NCBI GenBank assembly: GCA_946699065.1
Contig: CAMPDV010000946.1
Coordinates: forward strand, 94,394-158,393
From: Loxodes magnus
Taxonomy: Eukaryota; Ciliophora; Karyorelictea; Loxodida; Loxodidae
Direction: 5' to 3'
DNA length: 64,000 nt
A program made the position numbers and the translations under genes. Numbering within the stretch: the stretch's first letter is position 1; every line of letters begins with the position of its first letter. The notes beneath the pieces were generated by a model that did not search any database, was not told the origin of the DNA, and worked only from the letters and a program-made list of their open reading frames with translations. Of the stretch, positions 1,691 through 48,330 are shown piece after piece.

Positions 1691-2628
1691 TTAGTTTTTT
1701 AACCAATCAAAAATAACTTGATTTAAATCTTTTAGCGTATAGTTTTTATAGCCTCAGTATTTATTTATTTCAGCACACGAGTAATTTTTTAAGTTAGCCA
1801 TACCAGTATCAAGAGTAAAAAACAAAAAACCCTCTTTGACAAGTCAAAGCATAATTTCTTTTATTTGACTATAATCTATTATTTTTTTATTTGAAACCTC
1901 ATTCTATAATAATGATTACTTCTTTCGATCGTTTAATAATATCTTTTGAACCTTATAAAACCATTATTTCAGCATTTTCTATGTCAATTTTAATGAGTTA
2001 AGCTTCGGGAAGTATCTCTGGTGGAAAAAAGTCATCTAACTTTATTGCTAAAATTTTATAGTTTATATTTCTTTTGAAATCTTAAGAACTTTTGAGTCCA
2101 ATTTTTAATCTTTGCACTTTTAACATTTCAAGTTAACTAAGTCCACCAATTAAACATAACTAAAACTGCATTTCCTAAGTTTAATTTAAAATAGTGTAGT
2201 TAAAAATTTAGACTCTTTCTTGAAAAGTATTATATCATAATGAAGCGTTAGCAAATTAGATTGTTAATGGATTAGCATCAAAAGATTAAATAATGTCACC
2301 TTATTTCTAATCAATTAAGCAGTCTTTTTTAATGTATAAAGGTCATAAAATATTCCACAATCTATTATTTTTGAATTAGGCTTTATAATGCTTGTAATTG
2401 CAAGTAAAATTTCAACTACTCAACACTTTTATTTGAAAATAGGTGCTCAATATCTTTTTCTAAGCCTTTAGGTACATTATAAGATATTTTCTTTTCTTTA
2501 TATGGCAATTAGTTGATAATTTTATCTTTGAAAGTAAATGTGCCATTAAGTATATCTGTTTGAATTTGAAAAGCTTAAGGAAACAAGGAACTAAATCTTC
2601 TAGAAATTTTCATATCTGATAACTTCAT
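1691..2628 (-). pseudogene. FkbM-family methyltransferase, frameshifted
   Basis: FkbM-type SAM-dependent methyltransferases have a DxGxxxGxYT-like SAM loop and a late (I/L)KIDxExAExxVLxGA block. Here, on the minus strand from ATG 2628, the frame gives an N-terminal region with ISYNVPKGLEKDIEHLF. A SAM-loop-like NSKIIDCGIFYDLYTL follows, then QSFDANPLTIQF (the usual F-E-P-N-P position). Next is LIKIDIENAEIMVLQGSKDI, followed by VIIIIEWGF and an aromatic C-terminal part ending near DWLKN. The sequence needs frame changes near 2420, 2305 (before GDIIQSFD) and 1890 (in an A-run). Three TGA codons read as Trp, including the one in IIEWGF. The SAM-loop glycines are partly replaced (DCGIFYD), so activity is doubtful. 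It lies between two transposon-like fragments on the other strand. Decay or assembly errors could explain the shifts. Confidence 0.65.
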
Positions 2629-3831: not shown

Positions 3832-4756
3832 TAAAAAGAAGTTTTAAAGTTATCTTTATCTTGTTTGTTTCTAGTTCTAGGATTCTTGAGTCTTGCTCCT
3901 CTGATCTTTCATCTCCCACTATGTTTTATTTTAACTCTATCTCCAAATTCTTCCATTTCAAGGTTACTTTTCAATCTGTAGACTTCTCCATTTGTTCTAC
4001 ATCAGATCTGGTTCTTGCTCTTTCTTATTCTTTGCTAGACTTGTTTTTTCCATGTAATTTCTTTTACTTTACGAAACTCACCGCAGTTCTTCCATTTGTG
4101 CCATTTACTTTTACAATAGTAGCACAGTTTCACAATCCGAGGTTTTTGATTAGTTTTCATCTTAACTTAAGGATTCTTCTCGATCTCCATCTTATCAGAT
4201 AGAATTTACTCCAATGGAATTTGCTAACTTTGGAAGCTTTTCTGACTTTGTAAGATATTTTCGATCTGCTAGCTTTAGTCTTGAATATTTTGCACTTAGG
4301 AGTTCGTCTAACTAAATTACTCTTGTTAGTAATTCCAAAGAGCGTCGAGTTCCTCTCCTAATTGGCCATTCTAAGATCAAGTGTATCTTAAATTCCATGA
4401 GAGATCAGCTCCGTCAACTTCGTTTTCTCCTTGCGAAGTTTTTTAACCTCTTCCTGGAGGTTTAGTACTACTTTTATGAGCTATTCCATGCTCATCTGGC
4501 CAGAAGGATTAAATTAAGAGACCTCCTGGTAGAGAGCAGACATCATCTGCTTCCTCGGTTTTTCACTTGAGGTTGGGGCTTCCGTATGGGCTGTCTTTAA
4601 GGTTATCTTTTGCTAATCTTGTTAAGTTTCAGGTTTTTATTAAGAAGATTAAGGTTATTATTAAGAAGACAGAGAAGAGATAGTTTCCTGCTTCCTCTCT
4701 TCCTTTTTGGCTTAGGAAGAGGTGGTATAGAAGACTTTCCTGAAACTTTATTCCAT
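3832..4756 (-). pseudogene. Zinc-knuckle (CCHC) ORF1/gag-like protein (copy A)
   Basis: ATG at 4756-4754 on the minus strand follows an A-rich leader. The N-terminal region is Ser/Gln-rich and low complexity (SSLSSQQQPQSSQQKPE). A coiled coil (LNLQEEVKKLRKEKTKLTEL) follows, then, after one frame change near 4340-4380, a Gln-rich stretch (QNIQDQSQQIENILQSQ). A classical zinc knuckle CYYCKSKWHKWKNC (C-x2-C-x4-H-x4-C) lies at about 4076-4117. A basic C-terminal tail follows. This layout (disordered N-term, coiled coil, CCHC, basic tail) is that of nucleic-acid-binding ORF1p/Gag proteins. No endonuclease or reverse transcriptase is adjacent. Codon use is less AT-biased than its surroundings. The plus-strand frame 3861-4202 is its shadow. 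Confidence 0.65.
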
Positions 4757-30765: not shown

Positions 30766-33048
30766 ATGTCAGCGGCCAAGTGTGAAGCATGTGAAGAAGA
30801 TTTCAACTAAGAGCTTAGAAAGCCTAGGCAGTTGGACTGCGGATGTATTCTCTGTGAGAAATGCATAAAAACTGTATACAACCTCTATTAGAAATTTACT
30901 TGCAACAAGCATAACATCATTACGTAAAGACCAATTGAGTCATTATCAATTATGAACTTAGTAAGGCAATAGGCATAGAACCTTATCAATCCGTAGGACA
31001 TCTGCCCTATTCATAGATAGTATTCCTTAACTCTATATTGTGTATAGGACAGTATAAGAATATGTGTACAATGTTATTAGATATCGCATCAAGGACATGG
31101 ATGTATTACAACGTAGGAGGCACTCTAACAATTCAAAAATTACATAGAATAAACTTTTAGAGCTATCAAGTAGAGACTGGTTTAATACATATCTACATTG
31201 TATTAATGGTATAGTCAGATAAGTTAATTGTAGATATCCAGAATGGCTAATATGGTTTAGGTATAGCAATCGATCAAGTAGAGTATCAAGTAGGCATGGT
31301 AGAAGATGGTGAATGATTAATAATACTAAATAAAGAAGTAAATGAATTTACTTAAAGAAACATCTGATTACTATCAGGTGATAGGAAGTTAGGTCGAAGC
31401 TATCTCAAATAGTTCTTAGGATAATATCAATCAGTGTGAGAACAAGAAGAGACAGTTGAATCAATTTGAGTTAACAATCTAGGAAAGGTTCTAGAGTATC
31501 TCCCAATCATCCTCTGTTGTATGTCGAGAGAATTTAAGTCAATAGGCTCTCTAGAATTTTATCATTTCTTATCTAATGCAGTAGCTTTAGCCTAACCAAG
31601 TATACTAGAGTTACATGGCCTAAGCAAGCTAGATCAAGCAACTATAGTTAGCCATAAAGCGTTTATACTAAGACTTTCAATAACGGTTCCTCTACTAAGA
31701 AAAAAAAGAATAAGACTTTCAACTCTAGTTAAGCAATAAGGACTAATAACTTCAGGCCAAGTAATTCTAGTATGCTTAAGACATCTAAGAGTTGCAACAA
31801 CAAAAACTCATTCTTCAATAGGAATTAGATCTTAGTCAATCATCCATCAATCAGTTATAAGACTAGTTACATAAATTAGCATAAGAGAATATCAATTACA
31901 AAGAGTAAATGAGAATCTTATTGAAGGAGTAGGAGAGTATGAAATCTGCATCTATTTAATTAGAAGCCGATAATAAGAATAATATTGACTAGCTTAGATA
32001 AAAGGAATAATAGTTATAAGATCTTTCATAGTCATTGGAGGAATATAAGTCTTAAGCTAGATAAATTCAAGTCAGTGAATGGAGTGAGTTGGTGAAGGAT
32101 TCTATCTATAAGTATCTAATACTTAAGAGAGTGAATAATTTTCCACCAAGGATAGCAGTATATAGGAGAGTATTCAATAATACTAATAAGATCTAATCTT
32201 TTTAATTGGACAGTATCAATGGCTCCTGTGTTTACAATGTGGTAGCATCAATGACTCCAATAACTGGTAATTGATCCTCGACACATTAGATCTCTGATGA
32301 GTTACTAATCTAGGTAGGTGGTGCAACAACTAAATCACATCTGGATAAGATCTTATAAATAACTATAGGTAGTGATTCAGTGATAAAAGCCTCAGCTTCT
32401 TTGATCTAGCCAAGAGCAATTAGATAAATGGGATATGACAATGACAGATTGTTGTATATATTAGGAGGTATGGATCCGACATCAAAATCTGCATCATCTC
32501 ATGATTATTATAATTACTACAATTCATTGGAGGTGTACGACATAGTTTTGAATAAGTCTGTGTCATTGTTGAGTAATAAGGATTGTATCGCTTATAATGG
32601 AATATGGGTATCACATGAGAGAGTATGGATAGTGGGTGGTCGAATATAAAGTTCAGATTTATCTAATAATTTCACTAGATCAAGTTTGGTATCATCATAT
32701 GACGTGATGTTGAGTGTGTATTAGTAGTATGGGATGTAGTTACCTAAGCCGGCAGCTTATTTGTCAAGTGTGTGAGTGAATGAGACTGAGTGTGCCTATA
32801 TATGGGACAACAATAATAATCTTTAGTAAACTTGTGTGTTTGACACTAGGTCAATGATAAGGGATGGTAGTTAATATCCTAAATTACCTACTGCTTTCTG
32901 ATACAATGGTCAATAAGTGAATAATGTAATATGGATGTGGAGTAGTGATGAAGTCCAATAGGCAAATGTGATATATTATTACGACATAAAAGGAGGTAGT
33001 TTTTTTAAGTCTAGAGAGTGGAAATCTATGCAATTGGATGTGAATTGA
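30766..33048 (+). CDS. RING/B-box/coiled-coil protein with kelch-like C-terminus (TRIM-like)
   Basis: 760 codons from ATG 30766 to TGA 33046 with no frameshift. RING-type zinc site: C6-x2-C9, C25-x-C27, C30-x2-C33, C46-x2-H49. B-box: C80-x2-H83, C92-x2-D95, C100-x2-C103, H108-x2-H111, an exact family spacing. Residues about 120-450 are Gln-rich coiled coil. From about 480 on there are kelch-like strands with Gly-Gly turns (LYILGGM near 565, WIVGGRI near 622). By family this is a candidate E3 ubiquitin ligase of the TRIM plan, cytosolic or nuclear. TAA/TAG encode Gln throughout; TGA at 32272, 32773 and 32899 must be read through, and Trp fits (AF-W-YNG). The last TGA is chosen as stop because sequence after it collapses into AAAGTATA repeats. 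Short standard-code frames inside are fragments or shadows. Confidence 0.85.
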
Positions 33049-33089
33049 ATCTCTTAACGAGGACAATTATTAAGTAACTATATTATAAG

Positions 33090-33425
33090 TTATTAAAGTA
33101 TTAAAAGTATATTAAAGCATATTAAAAGTATTATAGTATTATAAAGTATATTTAAAGTATATAGAGTATTATAAAGTATATTTAAAGTATATAGAGTATT
33201 ATAAAGTATTAAAAGTATTAAGTATATTAGAGTATTATAAAGTATATAATATAAATTATGTATATAATTAGATGGTATATATATTATAAAAATAGAGTTT
33301 ATAAATAGAGTATGTATAGAAATGTATAGAGTACATATAGATTACATATAGAGTATGTATAGAGCATGTATAGAATATACTTAGAGTATGAATAGAGTAA
33401 GTGAAGAGTAAGTGAAGAGTGTATG
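33090..33425. repeat. AAAGTATA-type low-complexity repeats
   Basis: Imperfect tandem words ATTAAAGTAT / ATAAAGTATATTTAAAGTAT, grading into TATAGAGTATG and AGAGTAAGTGA units, directly after the RING gene stop. Probably 3' UTR and flanking simple sequence. Confidence 0.7.
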
Positions 33426-33429
33426 AGGC

Positions 33430-34180
33430 GAGTGAGTTAAATGAAATAAGAAAAGAAAAAAGAAAAAAATAAAAAAGAAAAAGGAAAAAAAATAAATAAA
33501 ATAAAAAAAAAAATAAATAAAAAAGAAAAAGAAAAAGGAAAAAGGAAAAAGTAAGAAAGAAAAAAGAAAAAAAGCAAAGAAAGAAAAAAAGAAAAAAGAA
33601 GAAAAGAAAAAAAGAAGAAAAGAAAAAAAGAAGAAAAGAAAAAAAGAAGAAAAGAAGAAAAGAAAAAAGAAGAAAAGAAAAAAAGAAAAAAAGAAAAAAA
33701 GAAGAAAAGAAAAAAAGAAGAAAAGAAAAAAAGAAGAAAAGAAAAAAAGAAAAAAAGAAGAAAAGAAAAAAAGAAAATTAAGAAATTAAGAAAAAAAAAA
33801 TGAAAGTAAGAAAGAAAAGAACAACAAAAAACAAAGAAAGAAAAAAAGTAAGAAAGAAAAAAAGAAAAAAAGAAAAGAAGAAAGAAAAGAAAGAAAGAAA
33901 GAAAGAAAAGAAAAAAGGAAAAAAGGGAAAAAAAAAGGGGAAAAAAATGGAAAAAAGAAAAGTAAGAAAGAAAAGAAAAAAAGAAAATATAGAAAGAAAA
34001 AGAAAATTAAGAAATTAAAAAAAAAAATGAAAGTAAGAAAGAAAAGAACAAAAAAAAGCAAAGAAAGAAAAAAAAATAAGAAAGAAAAAAAGAAAAGAAC
34101 AAAAAAAAATAAAAGAAAGAAAAAAAGAATAAAAAAGAATAAAAAGAAAAATTTTTTTTTGTAAGAGAAAAAAATGCAAG
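33430..34180. repeat. Long polypurine (GAAA/GAAAAA)n tract
   Basis: About 750 bases made almost only of A and G on the plus strand (units AAGAAAAAAAG, AAGAAGAAAAG). The frames on both strands here (Lys/Arg-rich or Phe-rich) are composition artefacts. Confidence 0.9.
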
Positions 34181-34388
34181 TAAGAAAGGGGAAAAATTTT
34201 GAAGTAAAGAAGAAAAGGTAACAAAGGGGTGAAATTTAAGAGAATAAAAAATTTGAAAGAAGGGAGAAGGGGTGTAAAATAAATGAGTGTGTAGAAAGAG
34301 ATAGTGGAGTTAAAGGAAGTAGATTAGAAGTATAAAGAAGTGCAAGGAAGTGCAAAGAAGTGATTGAAATTCATGAAAAATAAAAAAG

Positions 34389-34439
34389 TCTTTTTTTGCT
34401 CAGCGTTTTACACTACAAGAGATTTTTTTTGATGGACTA
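34389..34439 (+). repeat. 50-bp direct repeat, copy 1
   Basis: Contains TTTTTTTGCTCAGCGTTTTA, CAAGAGATTTTTTTTGATGG and ACTA. An almost identical copy lies at 34822-34871 (one base different in the core: CACTACAAG versus CACTGCAAG). Confidence 0.85.
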
Positions 34440-34821
34440 GAGGAGGGTTAAAGTGGATAGGGTGTGGGAGGGAATAATGAATAAAGGTAAAAAAAATAAT
34501 TGTATAGGATATTTTTTGAAAAAAGGTAAAAAATTTAAGAAAGGGACAAATTTTTTGGTTAAATGGAGATGGAGTTAGGAATAAAAAATTATAAATTTAT
34601 TTTCCTAAAAATTTTGTGAATGAGCGAGAATAAATTTTTTTTTGTGTGAAAGGAATCGAAATTTTTTTGGATTTTTGAAAATGAGTAAAAGGTAATTTGG
34701 TGATAAGAGTAAGAGAAGGTGAAATGAAAAATAAATGGAGTGTTTTTGGGATGAGTCGGATGTTAGAGGGAATTTTTTTTAAGAAAATGAGGAGTGTTAT
34801 AAAGGGAAAAATGGTGAAAGC

Positions 34822-34871
34822 CTTTTTTTGCTCAGCGTTTTACACTGCAAGAGATTTTTTTTGATGGACTA
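34822..34871 (+). repeat. 50-bp direct repeat, copy 2
   Basis: Same sequence as 34389-34439; its last bases (GGACTA) start the tandem array that follows, whereas copy 1 has only a single GGACTA. Confidence 0.85.
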
Positions 34872-35036
34872 AAAATTTTTGGAACGGACTAAAAATTTTT
34901 GGAACGAACTAAAAATTTTGGAACGAACTAAAAATTTTGGAACGGACTAAAAATTTTGGAACGGACTAAAATTTTGGGACGGACTAAAATTTTGGGTTGG
35001 ACTAAAAAATTTTGGAACGGACTAAAAGATTTTGAA
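34866..35036 (+). repeat. Tandem array, nine 18-20-bp units
   Basis: Nine units of GGACTAAAAATTTTGGAAC and close variants (G/A at position 2, 4-6 A, 4-5 T). The first sits on the end of the preceding 50-bp repeat, so the array probably grew from it. Confidence 0.85.
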
Positions 35037-35478
35037 AAATTAAGGAAAAGGGGTAAAACGTAAGTATATTAAATAAAAAAATAATAGAATATGAATAATG
35101 AAAAAATAATTTAGAAAATAGAATAAAGTAAGTTCCGATATAATAAAAAGATTAAAATATTTATAAATTTAATTATTTAGACTTATCGATAAGAAAAACT
35201 AAGTTAAAGAAGAATTATCTTATAAACTATTGTTAGAAGTATAAATAATTTGAATATAAGGATAGATAATGATGAAAAGAGATAACTAACTAAATAAGTA
35301 AAAGAAACCAAAAAAGAAATATAATTAAGAGAGAAAGGAAAAGTGTAGAGTTATTTTTGGAGATTCACACTATAGAAGAATTTTAAAAATAGACTAATCT
35401 TGGATGTTTTAGTTTTTACTTGATTAAAAAATAATAATAAATTATTATATAATATAATATAATTTAATATAATATAAA
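35037..35478. other. AT-rich spacer upstream of zinc-knuckle gene B
   Basis: No gene seen. It ends in an AATATAAT-rich leader directly before the ATG of gene B. Confidence 0.4.
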
Positions 35479-36291
35479 ATGGCATCTAAGAAATAATAGA
35501 ATTCTCCAACAAAATCTAATAATTAACCAGACTTTGCTAACTATTTCTATTGTTTCAATTGGATAATTAGAAGTTAGTAAAAAAGTTTAAGACTTTAAAT
35601 AAATAATTTAATCTCTCATGCTAACATTAACTAATTGGTAAATTAATAGGACTCTAAGCAAGAAATTAAATAGTAGACTATTTCCTTAGAAATAGATAGA
35701 AAGGTAAATTGGTCAAATAGAATGAAATTTAAGATAAAATTTTTACCAGAGGATCAGATAACTGGAGCATATCAAGCTCAATTAATTATCAAATTCAGAA
35801 TCATAAGGAGAAGAGAATCCGAACTAAACTTATTCTATTAGAAAAGAAAAATTAAATGCTGATATTGCTATAAGTATGGACATAAGGTTAATTAGTGTTA
35901 ACGATTTAAGAAGAAACAATCTTAAGTAACTGAAAGAGAAATCTAAAATTTATTTAAGATCTTATGCTTGACAACTAGAAGACTTTCAAGAAAAAATATT
36001 TTAACCATTCTTAGAAACTTCAAAAATCTAAAAGGCATTGAGAGATACAATCTGAATTTGACTTACAAGAATTAGCAAGAGGAGAAAATAAAAATGTTAT
36101 AAGAATTTACGATTAAAAAAATAAAGTATAATACGATCTCGAGACCTATTAATTACTACAAAACTCTAATTTATGGCAAGCTAAATAAAGGTGATGTCAC
36201 ATTATTATATTATTATATTAATTTAAAATAAAAAAATGAACATAAAAATTTGAAAGACAACGAAGTAAACGTAAATTAAAGTGTAATGTGA
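35479..36291 (+). CDS. Zinc-knuckle (CCHC) ORF1/gag-like protein B
   Basis: ATG 35479 opens a frame with no shift to TGA 36289 (270 residues). The N-terminus MASKKQQNSPTK matches that of protein C (MVPKKQQTSPTK). A Gln/Ile-rich middle leads to a zinc knuckle C-W-YCYKYGHKVNQC (residues 127-140), where the Trp codon is TGA (35860). Next is a basic region, then the motif LIYGKLNKGDVTLLYYY near 36165-36215, which contains the conserved hairpin. If TGA 36289 is also read as Trp, the frame continues plausibly (KEQQDFQGVQEQKRIREM), so the true end may be later, up to about 36420. Expected to bind nucleic acid through the knuckle. No endonuclease or reverse transcriptase nearby; a similar gene follows. 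Confidence 0.65.
36174..36199 (+). other. Conserved hairpin, copy B
   Basis: TGGCA (36174-36178) pairs with TGTCA (36195-36199), one G.U pair in plus-strand RNA. The loop contains CTAAATAAAGGTGA. Confidence 0.5.
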
Positions 36292-36718
36292 AAAGAATAA
36301 TAGGATTTTTAAGGAGTTTAAGAGTAAAAGAGAATAAGAGAAATGTAAGAGGACAAGAAGTAATTTAAAATGAAAAAAATTGCAAAGACAAAAGTATTTA
36401 ACATTAGCTAAATTAAAAATAAAATAAAAAAATAAAAAAATTAATCATTAAAAAGATATCTTTATGAAATAGAAGCGATGAAAAGAAGCTGAAAAAAAAT
36501 AATCTTTTAACTCTTCAATTTAAAAAATAGAAAAGATAATAAGATAGATTGAAACATCATATAATGGATTTTAAATAAATAGAAGAGATAATTTAAATAA
36601 ATTATATAGAATATACAAAGAAAAATAAAAGGATGCACTTCATCTGCATAGAGCATATCAGCTGTACTGCTTGTATACTATTTAAAAACATTTCTTAGAT
36701 ATATTATATAAAAATAAA
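36292..36718. other. AT-rich spacer between genes B and C
   Basis: A-rich; the first 130 bases may belong to protein B if its TGA is read through. It ends with ATATAAAAATAAA just before ATG of gene C. Confidence 0.4.
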
Positions 36719-37770
36719 ATGGTACCTAAGAAATAACAGACTTCACCAACAAAACCTTATAAAACTTAGTAGGATGTAGTCAATGATCTCTGCCATCTTT
36801 AGATAGAGAATTAAGAAATAACAAAAGTAATTAAAGATCTTTATAAACTAACTAATGAATTGTAAAATTCTATAGAAATTGTAAAATAGGAAAATTCAAC
36901 ACTACGATAGGAATTGCTCTAAACCCGCACTTGCAACAAATTAATGTGGAATTTTACAGACAGAACAAATAGCAATAGAAATTTAAAATTTGAAAATACT
37001 AAACCAGAAAAACTTAAAGAAAATGATTCATTGGAAATAGAATAACAAACTGCAGCAAAATATATTCCCTATCGGAAAATAATGATATGTTGACATTGCA
37101 AGCTTTCATTATATAAAGTAAGAAATTGCTTCCAATTTTAATAAAAATAAAAGAGATTAATAATTCAAATGGTAAGATATGCTTAAAATAAGCAAGACAA
37201 GTGAATGTTTACTTAATCTGAAAAAAACTCAAACTAAGCAAAAAAGCTCCTTATATCTAAAAGGCAGTAAACTATTTCAATGAAAATGATAGCGATTAGG
37301 CCTATCTAAAAAAATCATGGAAAAAATCTTAAAAATATCAAGAAACATGATAATGAAGATACAAGCAAATTTAAAGTGATAAATTATTTTTAAACAATAA
37401 ATTAACAAACTAATAAGTGGTAAACCAAATAAAGGTGAGACCAGAAATAATAGTGTTATGCTATAATAATATATTAGAATAAAGAAATATCATAAGTTTG
37501 ATTTTGATAAAATGAAGATTTATAACATTTGAATCTAAGACTAGAACAATCTAATTAAATATGAAAGTATTATTACAAAAGAATTTAGAAAATAACTGAA
37601 AATTTTACAAATAATTTAGTTAATTAAAGTAACAAGAGGTAAATTCATACAAAAGGAAATCATACAAACAAAGTATCTAATTGATAATGATATTTTATAT
37701 ATCATATATGAAATCTACAAAGAAATTTAAACTGGTAAGTAGCACTTGCGTTAAAAACGTAAGGAAATAA
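36719..37770 (+). CDS. Zinc-knuckle (CCHC) ORF1/gag-like protein C, one frameshift
   Basis: ATG 36719. N-terminus MVPKKQQTSPTK as in B, then a coiled coil (EITKVIKDLYKLTNELQNSI). The segment YIPYRKIMI precedes the knuckle C-W-HCKLSLYKVRNC, whose aromatic residue is a TGA (37091), exactly as in B; the usual His is replaced, so zinc binding is doubtful. The ATG frame continues to about 37400. The family motif LISGKPNKGETRN is found one frame over, followed by a convincing C-terminal part (LIKYESIITKEFRKQLKIL, then LIDNDILYIIYEIYKEIQ) to about 37770. One frame change near 37390 is therefore needed. Either this copy is dead or the frame change is an assembly error or programmed. Confidence 0.55.
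37417..37444 (+). other. Conserved hairpin, copy C
   Basis: TGGT (37418-37421) pairs with ACCA (37440-37443). An inner ACC/GGT pair (37424-37426 with 37434-37436) closes an AAATAAA loop. Confidence 0.5.
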
Positions 37771-38115
37771 TTATTTCTCAGCTTAAGAAACATAATTAAA
37801 CATTTTCTATGATCTCTATACTCTTACTACTTTTCTCAATTTTTTCTTTTATATCTTCTTTTCATATTTATTTTTTCTTAAAATAAATCTTAATTTGAAA
37901 AGCAAACCTAAATATTTAAAAAATACTATAATCTAATTATCTGAAGTCACGAAAATTTACCTTTTTTATCTCCTTTTATTTAAATTTTTTTTTTATTCTT
38001 TATAAAATCTAGTAAGTTCTAGCTTTACCTTGTCTCGTTGTTGATATTTCTTTCTTTTAGAAATTTTTAAAATTAAAAATAATTACCTTATTAATAAAAT
38101 TTCTGTTGATTCAGT
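37771..38115. other. T-rich spacer, no gene recognised
   Basis: Pyrimidine-rich DNA between protein C and the next frame; no motif seen. Confidence 0.4.
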
Positions 38116-38890
38116 ATGAAAAAAGATGTAAAGAAGAGTTAAGAGGAAAAACCAATAATATTGAAAAATACAACATTCGAAAAAAGATTTCAAATCTTTT
38201 TTTATCTTAGTAAATAGTAAGGAATTTTCATTAAAAATATGATGTACGAATTTAATGAAAAATACTTTGAGAGATGTTAATAACGAATTATAAGTAAGAT
38301 TCGTGTAACATTAGATAAAAAAGTCAAAAAAGCAAGGCGAAACAAAAGTGAAACTTCTAAACTGATCCGAAATGGATTTAAAAACAAAAAAACTGTAATG
38401 AAGAAAACATCACAAATTAAGGAAAAATGACTAGAGAAAAACATCACCTTAAAAAAAAGAAAATTAAATTAAAAAAAGAATAAAATTAAATGCTTAAAAC
38501 TTTTGAAATATAACCATTTAACTAATCACTTAGATTAGTTAAAAAAGACCAGAAGGTTTTCACAAATAGCAGGTATTGATAAATTTTAACTTTGAAAAAA
38601 AAATTCTTTGTAGCCTAAAAAAAAGCAACGTGAAGAAGAAAAAAAAACTTATTTTGTAAATGCAGAAAGCTTGAAAGATGTTAAGATATGATAAAACTTG
38701 TAAAATATTAGATGAAAAAGAATTGCTAAAAAAAATTAAAAGAAAAGAAAGTAAAAAAAAATCAAACTAAAAAAAATAAAAAAGTTATTAAAAAAGTAAA
38801 AAACGAAAAAAAAAACTATAGATAAAAATAACGACATCAAAAAAATGAAATAAAACAAAAAAATTTAATAAGAAAAAATTTTTTTATGAA
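38116..38890 (+). CDS. Hypothetical Lys-rich basic protein
   Basis: From ATG 38116 the frame gives MKKDVKKSQEEKPIILKN, then FEKRFQIFFYLSKQQGIFIK, then MMYEFNEKYFERCQQRIISK and IRVTLDKKVKKARRNKSETS. After that it grades into long Lys/Asn runs that look like A-rich noncoding DNA. No family recognised; the first 110 residues look protein-like, the rest less so. TGA is met at 38428 and later. The end is arbitrary. It could be a diverged host gene, an element gene, or chance. Confidence 0.25.
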
Positions 38891-40325
38891 GAAAATTTGA
38901 TAAAAAAAACTTGTGAGAATTTGAGTAATAAAGGAAGTTTGAGTCTGAAAGAGTAATTGAATTTGTGAAGATTAAATAAAAGTTTTACGAAATTTTAAAT
39001 AAAGAATAATAAAAAAATGTTTATAAGTAAGATAATCTCATTTTGTTTATATGATTTTTAATCTATTTTTTATAAATTTGAATCCCATCATCGTTTTTTG
39101 AATTTTTTCATTTTTCTTAAGTTTTTGCTTTACTAAATTAATTATTTGAGCTGACATTTTTAGTAAAGAATAACTATTAGCAATTTTTTTCTTTATTACA
39201 AAAATTATAAATTAAGCTAAATAAGGTTTTTATTAATTCTATTTCTTTAATCTTAAATGTTTTCGTATAAAAATTGGTAAAATCTGTCTTAAATCTTTTG
39301 TTATAGAATCAAAAAAACATTTTTTTTGGAGAAAAAATGGTAAGAGTTACAAATAAAAAAGTTCAGGCAAATTATTATTTCGTATTTTTTTTATAAAAAG
39401 ATAATTTTTATTGATTTTATTATTTAAGTCATTTTTTTTGTAATATGATTTCTTATGTTTTAATTCTTTTCTTCATAAAATAAAGCATTTTTATTACTTT
39501 ATTGATCTTTATAGAAAATAGCACTTTTTCACCTATACCAAGAGCAGATAAAAAATAAACCTATTGTGAGTTTTTTTTATTTTTTTAAATTTAAATCTTG
39601 AAATAATTTTTATCTTTACTTTTCATATGTTATTTCCTAATTCCAATAATAATATTCTTTTCAAATTTCTATTTCTGATTATAATTTATAGTTAATATTG
39701 TAAAAATTAAATAGCAAAATAAAAATGTTTAGTTATTTATTTTAACTTAAATTATTTTATTTTGCATATGTTTGTTTTTTTTATTATAACTATTAGACAA
39801 AAATTTATTTTTGGTTAAGATTTTAAAAAATTATTATTCTAATAATTTTTTAACTGAACAAAAAGAAATTAATTATTTTTTATAAAAGTAAAGTTGTCAG
39901 AAAAATTTGCTTCCATATATTATATTCAAAAATTAAGCATATTAATTTTAGTATTATCCTTTTACTATTTATGATAATCTTAGATCTGTTAAAATTATAG
40001 AATCTTCAAACATTTTAAAATGGAATAATAGTTACATAAATAATTATTTTGTAACTAAAAGAAAAACTAAAAATAAGCAAATATACAAATACATTATAAA
40101 TATAAATAAGCTTACAACCATTTATAGTTATTAATATTTTTTACCATTTAATTTAGATTATTATTACAAATTCTTAAATATTTATGAAAGATATAAATAA
40201 TACTTTTATAAATAATTAATTAAAGATTTAAAGTAAATACTAATCTCTTTAAACTTAACACTAGTTTATCCAATTGCCTAATTTAAACTAAGCTAAAGTT
40301 TTCTTAATTAATTTCAACTAAAAAG
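38891..40325. other. AT-rich DNA, no gene recognised
   Basis: Extremely AT-rich, with homopolymers of A and T. No gene, RNA or repeat unit identified. Confidence 0.5.
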
Positions 40326-40624
40326 TTTTTGGACCGGAAACTCCTTTCCGATTGCACGACCCGACGCTCTCTTTTATGGAATAACGGGGATATCCTGTTA
40401 TGCTCCAGGCACAGCTGCTAGGGAGCTCCATCGCTATGAGCAGCCAGGCTTCAAGCCCCTACCAAGAGCGGATAATCTCAAAGACAGTGTTCCCTTCAGA
40501 AAATGACTCTGACCAGGGACTTTCTCAGCGACAGGAAAGAAATTTGCTCCTAGCCATAAAACAAGAAAGTGTTATCACAAAGGTCATTCTCAGCTCCCAC
40601 CATCTTTCCAATTATTTGATTTAA
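40326..40624 (+). CDS. GC-balanced coding-like island, unrecognised product
   Basis: About 290 bases with roughly equal G+C and A+T in otherwise very AT-rich DNA. One frame is open from before 40331 to TAA 40621. It starts VFGPETPFRLHDPTLSFM, then QAQLLGSSIAMSSQASSPYQ, and ends VILSSHHLSNYLI. Candidate starts are ATG 40376 or 40400. Gln is mostly CAG/CAA (one in-frame TAA at 40382), and codons such as CTC, AGC, GTC and CCC are used, unlike all neighbours. Both edges drop abruptly into AT-rich DNA. Not recognised; it could be a horizontally acquired or captured exon, food-organism DNA joined in assembly, or a structured RNA gene. Confidence 0.4.
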
Positions 40625-42434
40625 AAATTAAATAATTTACTATATATAAGTTAAACATTTACTTTCATTCTTTTACATTTCTAATAGTAAATTAAAAAAA
40701 ATTTATTATTTTTGTTTTTATAAATTAAATAGTTTTTTAAAATTATTTAATTTCTTTTAATTTCAATGAGGTATAGTTTATATCTTACAAACATTTAAAG
40801 TTTATTTATGTTTGAAGTCTTAGTATTAATAGAATATTTTCGGAAAGAAACCAGATTTTAGAAATTAAATTTTGTAATTACAGATAGCTATTTTAAGCCT
40901 ATAATTTTATCAATATTTAGTCAAAGCTAAAATTTTTTTATTTTAATTTTTCCTTCTTTGTTAAAGTCGTTCAGAAAACACAGTACGGCTAAAGTCAGTA
41001 GCCCTCAAACTCTAAAAATAAATAATTAATTAAATAGCTCTTTATTTAATTTTTTAATATAGTAAAATAATATTTTTGCTAATTCGCTTTTTTTTAATTT
41101 TTATAATTTATATGAATCTATGTGTTTTATTTCTTTCCAATAATTATAATATATTTAATATTTACAATTATCCTAGCTACTTAATATATATTTTTTCAAT
41201 GTTTTTTTAAATCATAATAATAAATTTTTAAAAAAGCTCTAAAATTAATCTCCATCATTTTAATAGTTTATCTTTCAGATTATGTGTATTACTATTAAAT
41301 AATTTAAATTTAAACTTAAAATATTTTTAGATATCCTTAATTATCAGAATTTTTCTTTCAATTAAAGACATTAAAATTTAAAAAGTTTCGTCATATCACT
41401 TCCTCTTCGTTAGCATTTCTTATCTAAACATCTTCTGATTATTCATTAATAACTTTTTTAAATTGTTTCATTTATCCATCAAGTATTAATCTGTGAAATA
41501 TTTTTATTTGTAATTCTACCTATATTTCTTAACTTCTAGGAAATGCGTTTATATAGACTCGATCATTAAGAATCAATTTTTTTATTTAAAAACTCCTAAT
41601 TTTATATTATAGTAATTTCCTTATATCTAATTACTAATTAAATTCCATTATACGGTCGAAAGTATCATAATCTACTCATATGCAAAGGGGGCTATCATAT
41701 GTTAATGTGAGCTTCTCTGCTTAATTCCATTTTTATATTAAAATTGACTAGAATTCTAAATAAATAATGAACTAAGGTTTTTGTAGTATGATTAAAATGT
41801 TTATATCAATCCAAAGGTAATTTAATTCTTCACAGTTAACTTACTAATAATCTATTCTCTATGTAATTAAATATTATTTCCAAATATATTAAAATTGATA
41901 TTAAATTAGATTTATTTAAGATTATTTGGAAAGAAATATCTATTAATCGCTTATTAATTTTATATTTCTTTAGATAATTATACCTAATAGAGGATTATGT
42001 TAAAAAGAAAATTTACCATAATTGGTATCTGATCAGTCAATAATCTTATATTAGAATTAAGAGAAATTGTTTTAAACAAGTTTTGATGATTGAAAAATGC
42101 CAAAACTATTTTCTCTTATAAATACTTCAATTAAATAAATTTATTTGCTATTCCATTTATATTGGCATACCCAATCCTAATCTGATTTATGCTATTTCTT
42201 TATGATAATTTTTTCGACCGAGCAAGTTTTTTTTTAATATATACTTGAATTTATGTAAATTTGTCATGTTTTACAATTTTTTTTGCTTTAAATATTAAAG
42301 ATAAAACTAAATATATGTCATAGAAATGATAAATCATTTAGTCTCTTAATTATATCTTTGAGTATTGCTTAATCTATAACATTATTAGATAAAAATAGAT
42401 TAAACTTCTTTTATATAGCCTGAAGATTTTTAAT
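40625..42434. other. AT-rich DNA, no gene recognised
   Basis: Mostly AT-rich, with a small less biased patch at about 40970-41010 (TTCAGAAAACACAGTACGGC). No gene or RNA identified. Confidence 0.4.
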
Positions 42435-43210
42435 CTAAATGAATATTAAATAAATAATTTTACATGATGATAAATATAATATGTGTAATTTTTTATTTAT
42501 TTGATGGATGAATTTCATCAATTTTGCTTTAATAATACAACTAATTTTCCATTTTTTCATTTTACTAAAGTAAAATTTTATAATAATATAATAATAAAAA
42601 TTGATTAACGTGGAATCACCTTTATTTGGTTTTCCACAAATTAATAGTTTTTTGTTAATAAAAAGAAATTTCGATTTGTCTGGGTCAAGTCTAACATAAG
42701 TCCTCATGATTTTCAATTTATTTTTTCTAATGGTTTCCGATAGGTCTATTCCCATTCATTTCTTATTGAACTCATAAAATGCATGTTAAATATGCGGAGC
42801 TTCTCTATTTAGTTGGAGTATTTTCTTCTATAAAGTTTTCCTTCAAAATTGCAGTAGATTCTCATAATTTTCCGTTAGGGAATATAAGTTATTGGGATAT
42901 GCTATTCTACGTCCATTGGATCATTCATCGAAAGCTTTGATAGGAGTATGCTTCCCGTCAATTCTGTGAATTGATTGAATTTAGTTTCTGATTATTCTAT
43001 TTTAACATTTTCTTCTTATTTATTTCCAATTTTTTTATCTTACACATTGATCATCAGAAATTCGGTTTTCTTTTCTAGCTCTTATACTTGTCTTAATAAG
43101 TTTAAATTTTTTGGTTGCATGACTCTGAGTTCTTAAAGTATTTTTTAATATTCGTTTCTTGATTAAGATGAAACCTTTTAAGAAAAGACTGATGACAAGA
43201 AATGTTCCAT
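42435..43210 (-). pseudogene. Zinc-knuckle-family protein D, frameshifted
   Basis: ATG 43210-43208 on the minus strand. The frame gives a coiled coil (NLLRQVQELEKKTEFLMINV), then YIPQRKIMRIYCNFEGKLYR, aligning with YIPYRKIMICWHCKLSLYK of protein C, so the knuckle cysteines are mostly lost. The tail lies in another frame: FLFINKKLLICGKPNKGDST, then LINFYYY, within a 106-codon standard-code-open frame at 42435-42755. One frame change near 42750 is needed. The tail motif carries the most perfect version of the family hairpin (42610-42637). Orientation is opposite to the LINE that starts 450 bases away. Confidence 0.55.
42610..42637 (-). other. Conserved hairpin, copy D
   Basis: Six perfect pairs, GTGGAA (42610-42615) with TTCCAC (42632-42637), and an inner ACC/GGT pair around AAATAAA when read on the minus strand. 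Confidence 0.55.
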
Positions 43211-43655
43211 TTTTTTCTCTTTTCTTATATAATAAAAAATATTAACTAAAAGTATCTAATTTCTATGATTTAATTTTAATTCTTTATACTATTATTTCTA
43301 TTAGAATAGTAAATAAGAATAAAAATAGAAAAAATAAATAAAGAAGATATATTTAAAATTTAGTGTTATTAAAAAAATATATGATAACTATATTTATAAG
43401 CTAAAATTATTAATTAAATTAAATTAAAAGAAAACTAAAAAATAAAATTTAATATGGCATAATGTAACTAGTGTTACTCTTTGTATTTTATATTAAATCT
43501 ATTTAAATATTACTTTTTTTATATTTTACAGTATTTTCCAATTTTATATATTTTTAGTTTAATCCACTTAGCTTTAACATAAATCTGAGTATTAATAAAT
43601 TATTTTTGTTTAACATTCTTTTTCACTGTTGCTAATATAAAAATTAAATTTAAGA

Positions 43656-44950
43656 AATGAGATAAGAATTTGATGCTTAAATACAGAAGAAACATCATTT
43701 AATTACTATTTGCTAAGAATAAATACTAGAAAACAAATTTAAAATACATTAACATAGAAAGAAAATTATATCTAAAATATAGCAAATTTCTATGCAAAAT
43801 AATTAGCAGAGACTTTTAAAGAATATTCTGATATTCAAACTTAAACATATAAAGAAACAAGCAAATTTAATATCAAACAAACTTAAGCATAGCTTAATTA
43901 AATTTATTATTGTATTTAATTTGAATATCAATATCAAAAGATTTCACTCATTACAATAGATTTACAGTTAAATAAATAATCATGATAGATCGAATCTAAA
44001 GAAAGTTTTTTATATAAAATAAAAAACAAATAATAGTTAAGATTACAATAGTTATTTAGTAAAATTCATAATATGATAAGAATTAATTGGACTAGAAGTA
44101 AATAGAGCATAATAAAATTTCGAAAAATAAATAAAAAGTTGCAAACAAAAATAAAGCAAATAAATTAATAAATATTAACCAATAAAAATAAAAATAAAAA
44201 GAGAAGCTTTAATGATTGTAGTCAAGATAATTGATAAAATAATAAATCAAACTAAACTTTAAACAGTTTTAATACATTGGATTGCGGAATAATGACAGAA
44301 ATTACTGACTATCATCTAAATGTTTTTTTACAAGGATTTTGAGTAAGCGAAGCAGCATAATCAGTAATTATAAGAAGTTTATAATATTTTGAATACTTAG
44401 CATATTTAATTAGTAAAATATTATGAACATTAATGAGAACTAAAACTAGATGCTTATGCAGAGATATCATAGGTATAGAAAGACAAAGCAAAATCAAAGA
44501 TTTAATTAATTTTAAAAATTTTAAAATAAGACACTGCTACTCAGATAGTTCAATTTAGTGAACATTATGAAAAAAAGCAAAACTACAGTGTAGATATTTC
44601 AAATTTTGTAACAAAAATAATTAAATCTCATTATGGATTCAATTTAGTAGAATCAATATAAATGGTTAAAGAATTTAGTGAGATGCATAATTAAGTAAAA
44701 GTAAATTGAAATTTATGTAACATAACCAATTATTTGAAGTTGATGTTGAAGAAATAATTAAAAGAAATAACTTTAGAAGTGAAAATTTTATTTAATTTAT
44801 AAGCACGAAAAAATGACAAAATCAAAATCTCTCTGCTTAAGTTGAAAATAGATTTATTACATTATCTAATAAATTAAATTAGGCCACAATTGAAAGTAAT
44901 TAAGTAACAATTAAAATAGATTAAAAACTAACATAGCAATATGATGCATT
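43656..44950 (+). pseudogene. LINE ORF1-like region
   Basis: From ATG 43656 the frames give QEFDAQIQKKHHLITICQEQ, then in other frames KEYSDIQTQTYKETSKFNIK. Later come VQKDKAKSKIQLILKI, KIIKSHYGFNLVESIQMV and EVDVEEIIKRNNFRSENFIQ. It is a charged, Gln-rich chain without a recognised domain; at least three frame changes are needed. Position directly upstream of the endonuclease suggests an ORF1 or the N-terminal part of a single LINE protein. No CCHC knuckle or GKxNKG motif seen. Confidence 0.4.
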
Positions 44951-45059
44951 AACTTTATTTATTATTAATTGCTATAGAAATTCAATAATTTAAACTCCAA
45001 AATTACTCCATATTTAAATTCGCAATAATTAAAAAGTTCTTTACTTTTACGACCCAGGA

Positions 45060-48000
45060 CTTAAAGGAGGAGCGGAAGCAAATTAATTAAAAATAGCTCT
45101 TTGCAATATGAATTAAATATAATCAAAATAATTAAGTATTCAATAATTTACTCGATAATAAGGAATATATATTTATTCAATTAATGAAACTTGATAATAT
45201 TAAGACTTCATTCCAATATAAATTTAAGGATATAGAACATATTTTAAAAATTGTGAATAATCCTAAAGATCAGGTGGTGTTTGCTTTATTGTCAAAGAAG
45301 AACTTGATTCGAGACAAATTGAAATTGACTTTGGTGATTAAAATAGTCGTTTCTTAGTAATTAAAGTTGATAACATTTATTTTGCAACATATTACATGCC
45401 AACAAAGGAAAAACTTCTATCTATCAAAGACTAATCATATTAAAACTTAGAACTTATCCTTAATGAAGTAGGAGATTAAGCCCTTATGCTATTGGGAGAC
45501 TTTAATGCTCTTTTTTAAGAGTATGGGAGTAATAATTCATAAAATTAATAAAATAACGCTTAAAGATTAAATAATTTTATTAAAGAATATGATTTATAAA
45601 TAGCTAATAATACAAGATTTGATACTTTTAGAAGTAGGGTTAACCTTAAACTTATTGCAACGATTATGTTATAGTCAATTATCATATCAACATTGATTAG
45701 ATTACACTATTTTAAGTTTTACATAACACTTGACTTGTTGCAGATCACTTTCCTATACTGTTTAACTTACTTATCTAAAATATTAATAGAAACGTACCAA
45801 TTCTCACTCCTAGAATAAATTTTAAGATTAATAAACTTTAAAATTTAGAAATTAGATCTGAATATAAAGCCTTATTTGAATGATGCTTGATTAATTTTGA
45901 TATAATTGATTAAAATAATCTAGATTAATAATACTATTTTATAAGACATTTACTCATTAATAATGCAGATTAAATCTTAGGATCAGTTCCATAGAATAAT
46001 AACTTTAATTTACTTCCAATAAATATTATTAAGAGTTTTAACGCAGCAAAATAAGCAAAAATAGCTTACTAGCAAGCTTTAGAATAATAAGGAAGGGTAA
46101 ATTAGAAAGTTTTGAAGTTGGATTATTAAAGATAAAAAATATAATAGATATAAAAGTAATTACTGGAAATACAAGTAAAAATAAGCCAACAAAAATAGAA
46201 TATAAATGAATGAATCTCCTACTAAAATGTTTAAGTAAACAAAAAAGTTTTTAAATCTAAGAAAGAGAAATAATATGTATTTGGATTCTGAAGGGTTTTC
46301 AAATTTCATAATTAATTAGCAAAATAATGTTTTTAATGAGCACAAAAAACATTGATGAGGAAGAAATAAGAAAGTGTAATTAAAAAATTGATAATTCTTA
46401 TAGAAATTGTGATTTCGTATAAGAGCAGGTACCTATATATAGACAAGAGTTCGATCTATTTCATTTAAATGAAATTTAAGCAATTATAAAGAAATTAGGA
46501 AATAGCAAATAAAATGGAGCTGATGGCATTAAAGCAGAACTCGTTAAATATGTTAATAAAGATTTTTATTTTGTGCTTTTAAAATTTATAAATAACATGC
46601 TAAGAAATCAAAATAATCCAAATTAACTTAAGTAAATAATAATCCTTCCTATTTACAAAAAGGAATCAAAATTGATTGAATAAATTGGAGACCTATTGCA
46701 CTTATAAACTTCATCCTTAAAATATATGATAAAAAGCTTACTTAAAGGTTATATGAATATATTGAATGAAAGATTATACATCCTTCACATTAAGTATTTC
46801 TGAAGAAAAGATAAACTATGCACTAAATATGAGCCTTATAATAAATTAATGATTTGTATAGAAGATGAGGAAAGAAGAAACATTTGCTCTCTACTCTTAT
46901 TGATGTTGAAAAGATGTTTGATAGTATTGATAGATGTCTATTTTTTGATCATTTAAGAAGAATTAAAATACCTTTAGCACTAATAAATAGTATAAAATCA
47001 TTTTATAAAGAATGTTATAATATAAAAATGGTGTATTATAAGGAAGTTCACATGAACCAGTATTTGCTATAATTTTCTAGCATATTGTTATTAGATACCT
47101 TGATACCTTGAAAATTATCAGAAATAACTTATATTTAAAATTTTGAATCATTATTTTGTAACTAAAGCATGGGCTAAAGATTTGTTATTGATTTAAAATG
47201 AAGATAAAATGAATTCTTTAATAAAAGGTGTTTGAAAATTGTTTAGTTGAGTAAAACTATCAATTAATACAGAAAAATGTGAATATATATGTTTTCTTAA
47301 GAAGAATTAAAAATAGAATGATTACAATTTTAATATTACTTTGAATAATAACATTATCAAAAGTTAAAAATGTTACATATTTAGGATTTAATTTTAATGC
47401 ACTTTAAAATTACAAAATTCATTTTTATGATATTTGCCGAAAGTATAGGAAGTGTGTGAATGGAACTTTGCTATAACTTGCAAAATATAGAAATATTTCA
47501 CCATAAAATTTTAAATAAATCTTTCAATCTTTTATATTATCGAAAGTTGAATATGGATCAGAAATAATACCATGAGCTATTCTAAAAGGAATGAAGAAAA
47601 TCAAAAAAGATATAAATATTAGTCAGAGAAAAGTATCAAGATATGCATTTAAGAGTCCTAGATCCTCCTTTAACGAATTTTGCTTCATAGATTTGAATTG
47701 ACTTCCATTTGAATATTACATATCTATGAGATATTTTAAATTCTATCTCAAAATGCTATTAGAAAGTGAAACAAATCCTAAATCTGATATAGCTTACCTC
47801 TATAATAAAACAAAAAATCAGTAATCTTAATATTTTAAGAAATTATAGAAACTATCCTAGCATTTTTAAATTAATCATTTGGATGTTAAAGAAAGCAAAG
47901 AATTCCTACGATTAGTTTAAAATAAAATAAGACAAAAATTTTATTTAGATTCAATAATAAGAATGAACTTAATGCCTATAGCATGCTTATATGTAGATGA

Positions 48001-48330
48001 AATTGTCAATAACACCTCATAATTCCCAATCTACAATTACATTAATCTTAACAAACATATGGTAATCGATTTATAAGCTTAGAACATTTTTCTATAACTT
48101 CTAATATGATTTGCTGTAAAGATTTAGAACAAAATTGAATACAAGAGTAGAAAAGTTGAGAGAGGTAAAAATGAAAACTTTTGATATTACTGTAAATAAT
48201 ATAGTATAGAGATTTTTAGTAAATTTAAATATAAAATAAATATAAAACTGAAAAAAGTAAGCTAGTAGTATTTAATTTTGTAGGAAATAATATTTATTAG
48301 TAACCAAATAGAATAAGCTAATAAAGGAAT
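45060..48330 (+). pseudogene. LINE ORF2: endonuclease + reverse transcriptase, broken
   Basis: Endonuclease in frame 0: IALCNMNQI, SINETW (Trp = TGA 45192), RSGGVCFIV, ATYYMPT and MLLGDFNALF near 45486. After a shift near 45650 comes DYVIVNYHINIDQ and ADHFPILFNLL. Reverse transcriptase: FHLNEIQAIIKKLGNSKQNG, ADGIKAELVKY and IILPIYKKESK in frame 1. Then NWRPIALINFILKIYDKKLT and LIDVEKMFDSIDR in frame 0. Later A-K-DLLLIQ at 47173 stands where YADD is expected, so a catalytic Asp is lost. It continues LFS-W-VKLSINTEKCEYICF (TGA 47248). C-terminal part in frame 2: KVEYGSEIIP-W-AIL (TGA 47573) and DLN-W-LPFEYY (TGA 47699). At least five frame changes. Confidence 0.85.

Follow-up and report, generated by a model that had tools for sequence, protein, structure and literature searches.

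The DNA analysed here is a window of 64,000 nucleotides from the ciliate Loxodes magnus (contig CAMPDV010000946.1; C946:94394-158393 in our numbering), and our subject is how the triplets TGA, TAA and TAG are read in it. A first-pass annotation had pointed to TGA triplets at ten positions, three of them in a gene for a RING/B-box/kelch protein and the others in relics of further genes, and had proposed that TGA stands for tryptophan, and TAA and TAG for glutamine. All ten positions do hold TGA (the one at 1899-1901 on the minus strand). The window has a G+C content (GC) of 24.5%. Under the standard code it offers just two stop-to-stop frames of at least 150 codons, which both lie between 33268 and 34006 on the minus strand. 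ARAGORN found no transfer RNA (tRNA) gene in the window, and a comparison with phage records gave no match. A self-trained codon scan picked out a single strong gene (30766-33066) and, on the minus strand, a single weak segment (4170-4556), so that the window presents itself as one clearly intact gene among relics. The features under discussion are the following, where copies are those that we sought and aligned from the whole assembly (705,730,643 bases, 7,843 contigs).

30766 to 33048, plus strand: gene for a RING/B-box/coiled-coil/kelch protein, 760 codons and a stop; GC 33.2%, against 22% over the 50 bases and 17% over the 100 bases that follow
32272 to 32274, plus strand: in-frame TGA where the kelch part starts; TGA 35, TTT 3, GCC 1, ACT 1, TGT 1 in 41 copies
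32773 to 32775, plus strand: in-frame TGA in the kelch part; TGA in 41 of 41 copies
32899 to 32901, plus strand: in-frame TGA in the kelch part; TGA in 41 of 41 copies
33046 to 33048, plus strand: probable stop TGA; all 21 aligned full-length copies end at TGA within a few codons of it
1893 to 2201, minus strand: fragment of an FkbM methyltransferase domain (PF05050, E = 5.6e-10); 127 matches in the assembly
1899 to 1901, minus strand: TGA read as Trp, IIE-W of the FkbM domain; TGA 9, TGG 7, Leu 3, Met 1, gap 1 of 21
35860 to 35862, plus strand: TGA in a CCHC knuckle, CwYC(4)H(4)C; TGA 11, TGG 1, Leu 7, Gly 1, gap 1 of 21
37091 to 37093, plus strand: TGA at the corresponding position of another knuckle, which is more decayed; seen in the sequence only
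45060 to 45650, plus strand: endonuclease part of a long interspersed nuclear element (LINE; PF14529, E = 1.4e-6, and PF03372)
45192 to 45194, plus strand: TGA read as Trp, NET-W of the endonuclease; TGA 17, TGG 4 of 21, nothing else
47233 to 47235, plus strand: in-frame TGA in a column that is mostly Cys; TGC 6, TGT 6, TGA 4, others 5 of 21
47248 to 47250, plus strand: TGA read as Trp, ahead of VKLSINTEKC of the reverse transcriptase; TGA 20, TGG 1 of 21
47573 to 47575, plus strand: TGA read as Trp, EIIP-W of the LINE C-terminus; TGA 16, TGG 4, Tyr 1 of 21
47699 to 47701, plus strand: TGA read as Trp, LN-W-LP of the LINE C-terminus; TGA 15, TGG 4, Leu 2 of 21

Read from the ATG at 30766, the RING gene passes in one frame through TGAs at 32272, 32773 and 32899 to a fourth at 33046. 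These four in 767 codons amount to 0.34 of the number expected from window composition. Pfam recognised the B-box (E = 8.8e-8), the RING domain (0.0015) and, weakly, the kelch part (PF24681, 0.001). The whole protein matched 12 sequences in the PDB, mostly TRIM proteins, none of which covers the kelch part; searched separately, this part gave weak matches to kelch proteins and Keap1 (best E 0.099). The family comprises at least 59 loci, a lower bound that could include alleles or duplicate contigs: 49 full-length loci including that of the window, each a one-frame match with 2-5 TGAs, and 10 more in pieces. The frame is kept throughout in all 21 full-length copies that we read. Codon bias persists beyond the first TGA, and past this point the ratio of nonsynonymous to synonymous change (dN/dS) is 0.63 in frame versus 0.88 and 0.99 in the other frames (ahead of it, 0.35 versus 0.92 and 0.91). 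Because the copies keep the frame and dN/dS follows this pattern, the kelch part is most likely translated, with TGA as a sense codon. The proposal of three TGAs inside an otherwise intact gene is thus upheld by intact paralogues in which these triplets are sense; their meaning as Trp rests on the code, not on their own columns.

We also considered introns at these positions. GT-AG stretches of 15-30 bases do not occur over 32899; one (23 nt) lies over 32272 and seven over 32773, two of which would keep the frame (15 and 21 nt). Given TGA in all 41 copies at 32773 and 32899 and the continuous frame, introns appear to be an unsuitable explanation and were rejected.

The triplet at 33046 probably is the stop of this gene. 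The nearest TGA and TAA in frame lie 49 and 44 codons upstream, so neither occurs in the last 20 codons of this one gene. A depletion of coding UGA and UAA just ahead of true stops is described in PMC11441545, and the same source gives the GC of L. magnus as 33.5% in coding sequence and 18.6% in 3' regions, close to the 33.2% and 17-22% of the RING gene.

The relics provide sites at which the residue can be judged from copies. The claim that the IIE-W position of the FkbM relic is Trp found good support, since TGG occupies it in 7 of the 20 ungapped copies. A separate profile search confirmed the domain (PF05050, E = 1.1e-8), and a search of the fragment against the PDB gave nothing at E up to 1. 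Likewise, the two C-terminal LINE positions that had been read as Trp (LN-W-LP at 47699 and EIIP-W at 47573) each contain TGG in 4 of 21 copies. The endonuclease part of this element has at least 150 matches in the assembly; at NET-W (45192) the TGG rows form one more diverged group with 56-58% identity. The LINE is broken over three frames, namely the endonuclease (45060-45650), the tested strip of reverse transcriptase and the C-terminus, and because all of these belong to one decayed element its sites do not count as independent genes. The two knuckle positions, 35860 and 37091, would by our reading be the same place in two related relic copies. Overall, five of the six positions tested outside the RING gene appear to be mainly TGA and TGG, and the knuckle at 35860 is weak. 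The idea of conserved Trp positions stands for these five, with the qualifications that 35860 adds little and that the LINE sites stem from a single element.

Pooling six alignment sets (dynein left out), we counted 62 codons that replace TGAs of the window: TGG 23, Leu 12, Cys 13, Phe or Tyr 7 and others 7, where 12 of the 13 Cys replacements come from the single column 47233. The rows are related by ancestry and were chosen by hand, so that such pooled counts are descriptive. In the same sets, window codons other than TGA and TGG were replaced by TGG in 16 of 7,073 cases. Omitting the reverse transcriptase strip and using the 21 full-length RING rows instead of the 41 kelch-only rows gave 22 of 40 versus 17 of 7,969. 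Parsimony on quick trees required at least four changes between TGA and TGG in the FkbM column, at least two in each LINE C-terminal column, and at least one each at 45192, 35860 and 47248. The second half of the proposal was confirmed by the same kind of count, as TAA and TAG were exchanged with each other and with CAA: window TAA was replaced by TAG in 106 and by CAA in 62 of 496 replacements, and TAG by TAA in 81 and by CAA in 10 of 191.

A further test used dynein genes outside the window. The AAA1 region of dynein gave 42 matches in the assembly, 20 of which were aligned. The Trp of GAW-CFDEFNRI is encoded by TGG in 15 of these and by TGA in four; one diverged copy has Arg instead. The TGA copies include L113, for which both solved dyneins shown have Trp at this place. 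From genomic DNA, then, the main proof that UGA means Trp lies in copies elsewhere in the assembly, and the evidence within the window is weak.

Several observations weigh against reading TGA as Trp and TAA/TAG as Gln. Where the knuckle at 35860 holds something other than TGA, it is mostly Leu. Column 47233 is mostly Cys, and not every in-frame TGA therefore marks a Trp column; the TGA at this place is probably a relic substitution. In the solved endonucleases shown, the residue opposite 45192 is Lys or His. The otherwise good dynein copies L098 and L113 contain single TGAs in variable columns, and the solved dyneins shown do not have Trp there. None of the 41 kelch copies has TGG at 32272, 32773 or 32899, and six columns of this part are TGG throughout with no TGA. 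A Pfam test in which each TGA was read as ten different residues was nowhere decisive. This comparison with family profiles, which had been suggested as a check, favoured Trp mildly at 45192, where it ranked first in PF03372 (25.8 bits versus 24.4 for His and 24.3 for Lys), and did not single it out in the FkbM domain (Trp 40.0, Lys 40.2, Tyr 40.0, Phe 40.0 bits) or in kelch (PF24681: Trp 25.3, Gln 25.6 bits). Finally, a pattern for the cognate tRNA-Gln of UAA and UAG gave no match in the assembly, although this pattern may be too strict.

Part of this list could be accommodated by the code of table 6, in which UAA and UAG mean Gln and UGA is only a stop; the in-frame TGAs would then have arisen by mutation in pseudogenes and relics. 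Decay and frameshifts are evident in the LINE, and a TGA in such an element could be a mutated TGG, a change that takes no more than a simple transition. The mostly Cys column 47233 fits this explanation, as does the diverged dynein copy L117, which contains TGAs in Gly, Ala and Arg columns; the latter would also look like the pattern expected from loss of constraint. We nevertheless give table 6 practically no credence. TGA is common to intact copies, at two columns in 41 of 41 kelch parts and across the 49 full-length one-frame loci, and it occurs in dynein genes whose remaining sequence matches PDB dyneins. Unless all of these genes are untranslated, table 6 is already refuted by what the dynein copies and the paralogues show.

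Regulated termination at 32272 is a different way to account for the TGA at this place: UGA would be kept there for a short RING/B-box/coiled-coil form besides a long form with kelch. The triplet does lie at the domain boundary, and 35 of 41 copies have UGA rather than UGG. The remaining six copies, however, have sense codons (Phe three times, Ala, Thr and Cys), the triplets at 32773 and 32899 are better kept yet lie inside the kelch part, and 32272 is 774 bases ahead of the stop. Moreover, 10 of 50 other two-fold purine columns of the kelch part vary, which gives P ~0.17 for no exchange at its Trp columns; the absence of TGA/TGG exchange therefore needs no special cause. We regard regulated termination as very unlikely, and keep UGA as Trp for these positions.

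We then turn to the tRNAs. An anticodon-arm pattern for tRNA-Trp matched 124 times in the assembly versus 0 times for the reversed control, and among the matches listed all have the anticodon CCA and lie in long tandem arrays on two contigs, C67 (482321-491201) and C148 (155462-169423), with spacings near 187 and 241 bases. The loci fetched from C67 have a single sequence in 272 of 272 inspected windows (overlapping), which ARAGORN calls tRNA-Trp(CCA). The anticodon stem of this tRNA consists of four pairs and, on top, an A facing a C, which cmscan marks as a non-standard pair. This shape was seen on the C67 array; for the C148 copies, the sequence inspected began at the lower anticodon stem. 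The plain minimum-energy fold of the C67 tRNA is not a cloverleaf; the four-pair stem comes from the covariance alignment. The first-pass annotation had suggested looking for a tRNA-Trp(UCA) gene, and none emerged from pattern, ARAGORN or cmscan checks. The UCA-loop pattern, which leaves introns and other loop sequences outside its scope, matched 37 times, below the 67 matches of its reversed control; ARAGORN called no tRNA in 25 of 25 fetched loci, and cmscan none in 12 of those 25. According to PMC4967479, no tRNA-Trp(UCA) was found in the nuclear genome of Condylostoma magnum either. A tRNA-Trp(CCA) with a 4-bp anticodon stem is known from Loxodes and is credited to Swart and colleagues (PMC13092985, PMC12005148).

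Other tRNA-like sequences were seen along the way. Evenly spaced matches also occur on C78, C103 and C158, where the eight fetched out of 63 are tRNA-Lys. Seven of the 37 UCA-pattern matches have a common T-arm-like repeat. At the five fetched loci that contain it, L041, L043, L044, L045 and L053, a repeated element carries the T-arm-like box GGTGGGTTCGAGTCCCAC 3' of CTTCAGA; neither ARAGORN nor cmscan called a tRNA there, and the repeat is perhaps tRNA-derived.

Canonical eRF1 carries the motifs TASNIKS and YLC...F. The assembly contains three eRF1_1 hits. Two lie 35 kb apart on one contig (C196:19713 and C196:54613), and the one that we read, L075, has RAQNIKS and FFLCENTF in place of TASNIKS and YxCxxxF; by its sequence it looks like an eRF1. 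Its reading appears to end at TGA, judged against the C-terminus of eRF1. The third hit, on C2, we take to be Pelota from its resemblance.

These ends bear on the choice between the two codes that had been put forward, the karyorelict code (table 27) and a Condylostoma-type code (table 28) in which all three codons are sense or stop depending on context. The latter likewise has UGA as Trp and UAA and UAG as Gln (PMC4967479), and the 4-bp tRNA-Trp(CCA) is common to both (PMC13092985). Against it, each of the 21 full-length RING copies has TGA at its end and none has UAA or UAG there, albeit in one family, and the eRF1 gene appears to end in the same manner. Table 28 is thus very improbable for this genome; table 27 is the better fit, and the karyorelict half of the earlier proposal is the one that stands.

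We consider it almost certain that the whole of these observations is explained by nuclear DNA of a karyorelict ciliate in which UAA and UAG mean Gln and UGA means Trp inside coding sequence and stop close to the mRNA end. The earlier finding and its interpretation are right, and the code is already in print for karyorelicts. PMC11441545 assigns table 27 to karyorelicts, Loxodes among them: UGA is the sole stop, and it also means Trp where it stands at a sufficient distance upstream of the poly(A) tail. In the proposed mechanism, UAA and UAG would be read as Gln, an internal UGA would be decoded as Trp, and the last UGA would terminate through its nearness to the poly(A) tail. The likely decoder is the tRNA-Trp(CCA) with its many gene copies, 4-bp anticodon stem and A-C mispair on top, which may also read the UGAs of the window. 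The code and the poly(A) model in this scheme come from the literature; the exchange of TGA with TGG, the intact TGA-bearing genes, and the tRNA genes with their stem come from our data.

Further observations concern the surroundings of these genes. 3' of the RING gene, at ~33093-34140, A/T-rich repeats of ~30 and 11 bases are followed by a long purine-rich array with 8-base spacing, and this region has strong GC and AT skew. The FkbM fragment (1881-2240, minus strand) belongs to a large dispersed family, and many of its 127 matches have open frames of more than 110 codons. Of the 299 columns in the alignment of 41 kelch parts, 172 show no variation and 18 exceed 2 bits of entropy. Some variable columns lie just past GG doublets (32323, 32470, 32641) and others in between; TGA is among the codons used at variable columns 32263, 32509, 32677 and 32758. 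RING/kelch copies are spaced 45-49 kb apart on C420, C719, C213 and C1462, and 37, 53 or ~98-105 kb elsewhere. Close copies of the LINE relic lie 14-16 kb (start to start) from RING/kelch copies on C946, C1462, C2600 and C2345. It is as if a segment of ~47 kb were repeated, carrying RING/kelch copies. Tentatively, and with more doubt than confidence in the combination, we suggest that the UGA-bearing gene belongs to a large family (at least 59) of intact TRIM-like proteins, several on ~47 kb repeats, which would form a repertoire of ubiquitin ligases diversified in what they recognise, with a nearly frozen kelch framework and a few hypervariable residues (after GG and in neighbouring loops), UGA-coded Trp among them. 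The family may merit separate study.

Among known systems, the LINE families described for L. magnus in PMC11441545, where copies of retrotransposon domains number in the thousands, share endonuclease and reverse transcriptase with the element in the window and are mostly fragmentary; the window copy differs by its frameshifts, and it is not assigned to a named repeat family. The tRNA-Trp(CCA) resembles the 4-bp-stem tRNAs of Blastocrithidia, Condylostoma, Blepharisma and Loxodes in its CCA anticodon and unpaired stem top, whereas in B. nonstop and C. magnum the mispair is C-U (PMC13092985) and here it is A-C. The Condylostoma code is alike in that all three stop codons have a sense meaning, with UGA as Trp, but UAA and UAG terminate there too and here we saw only TGA ends (in a single gene family and an eRF1 gene). 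Parduczia, like Loxodes, is a karyorelict. For Condylostoma magnum and Parduczia, PMC4967479 gives UAA=Q, UAG=Q and UGA=W, with mass-spectrometry and ribosome-profiling support for translated UGA. A code in which no codon serves solely as a stop departs strikingly from the frozen genetic code, and it has been published for Parduczia (2016) and for Loxodes. Our contribution is to confirm it independently, using nothing but genomic DNA, through TGA/TGG exchange among copies, a test that needs neither RNA nor peptides. With the karyorelict code of Loxodes and Parduczia, the window shares UAA and UAG as Gln, internal UGA as Trp, terminal UGA as probable stop and short AT-rich 3' ends, and nothing differed among the features tested.

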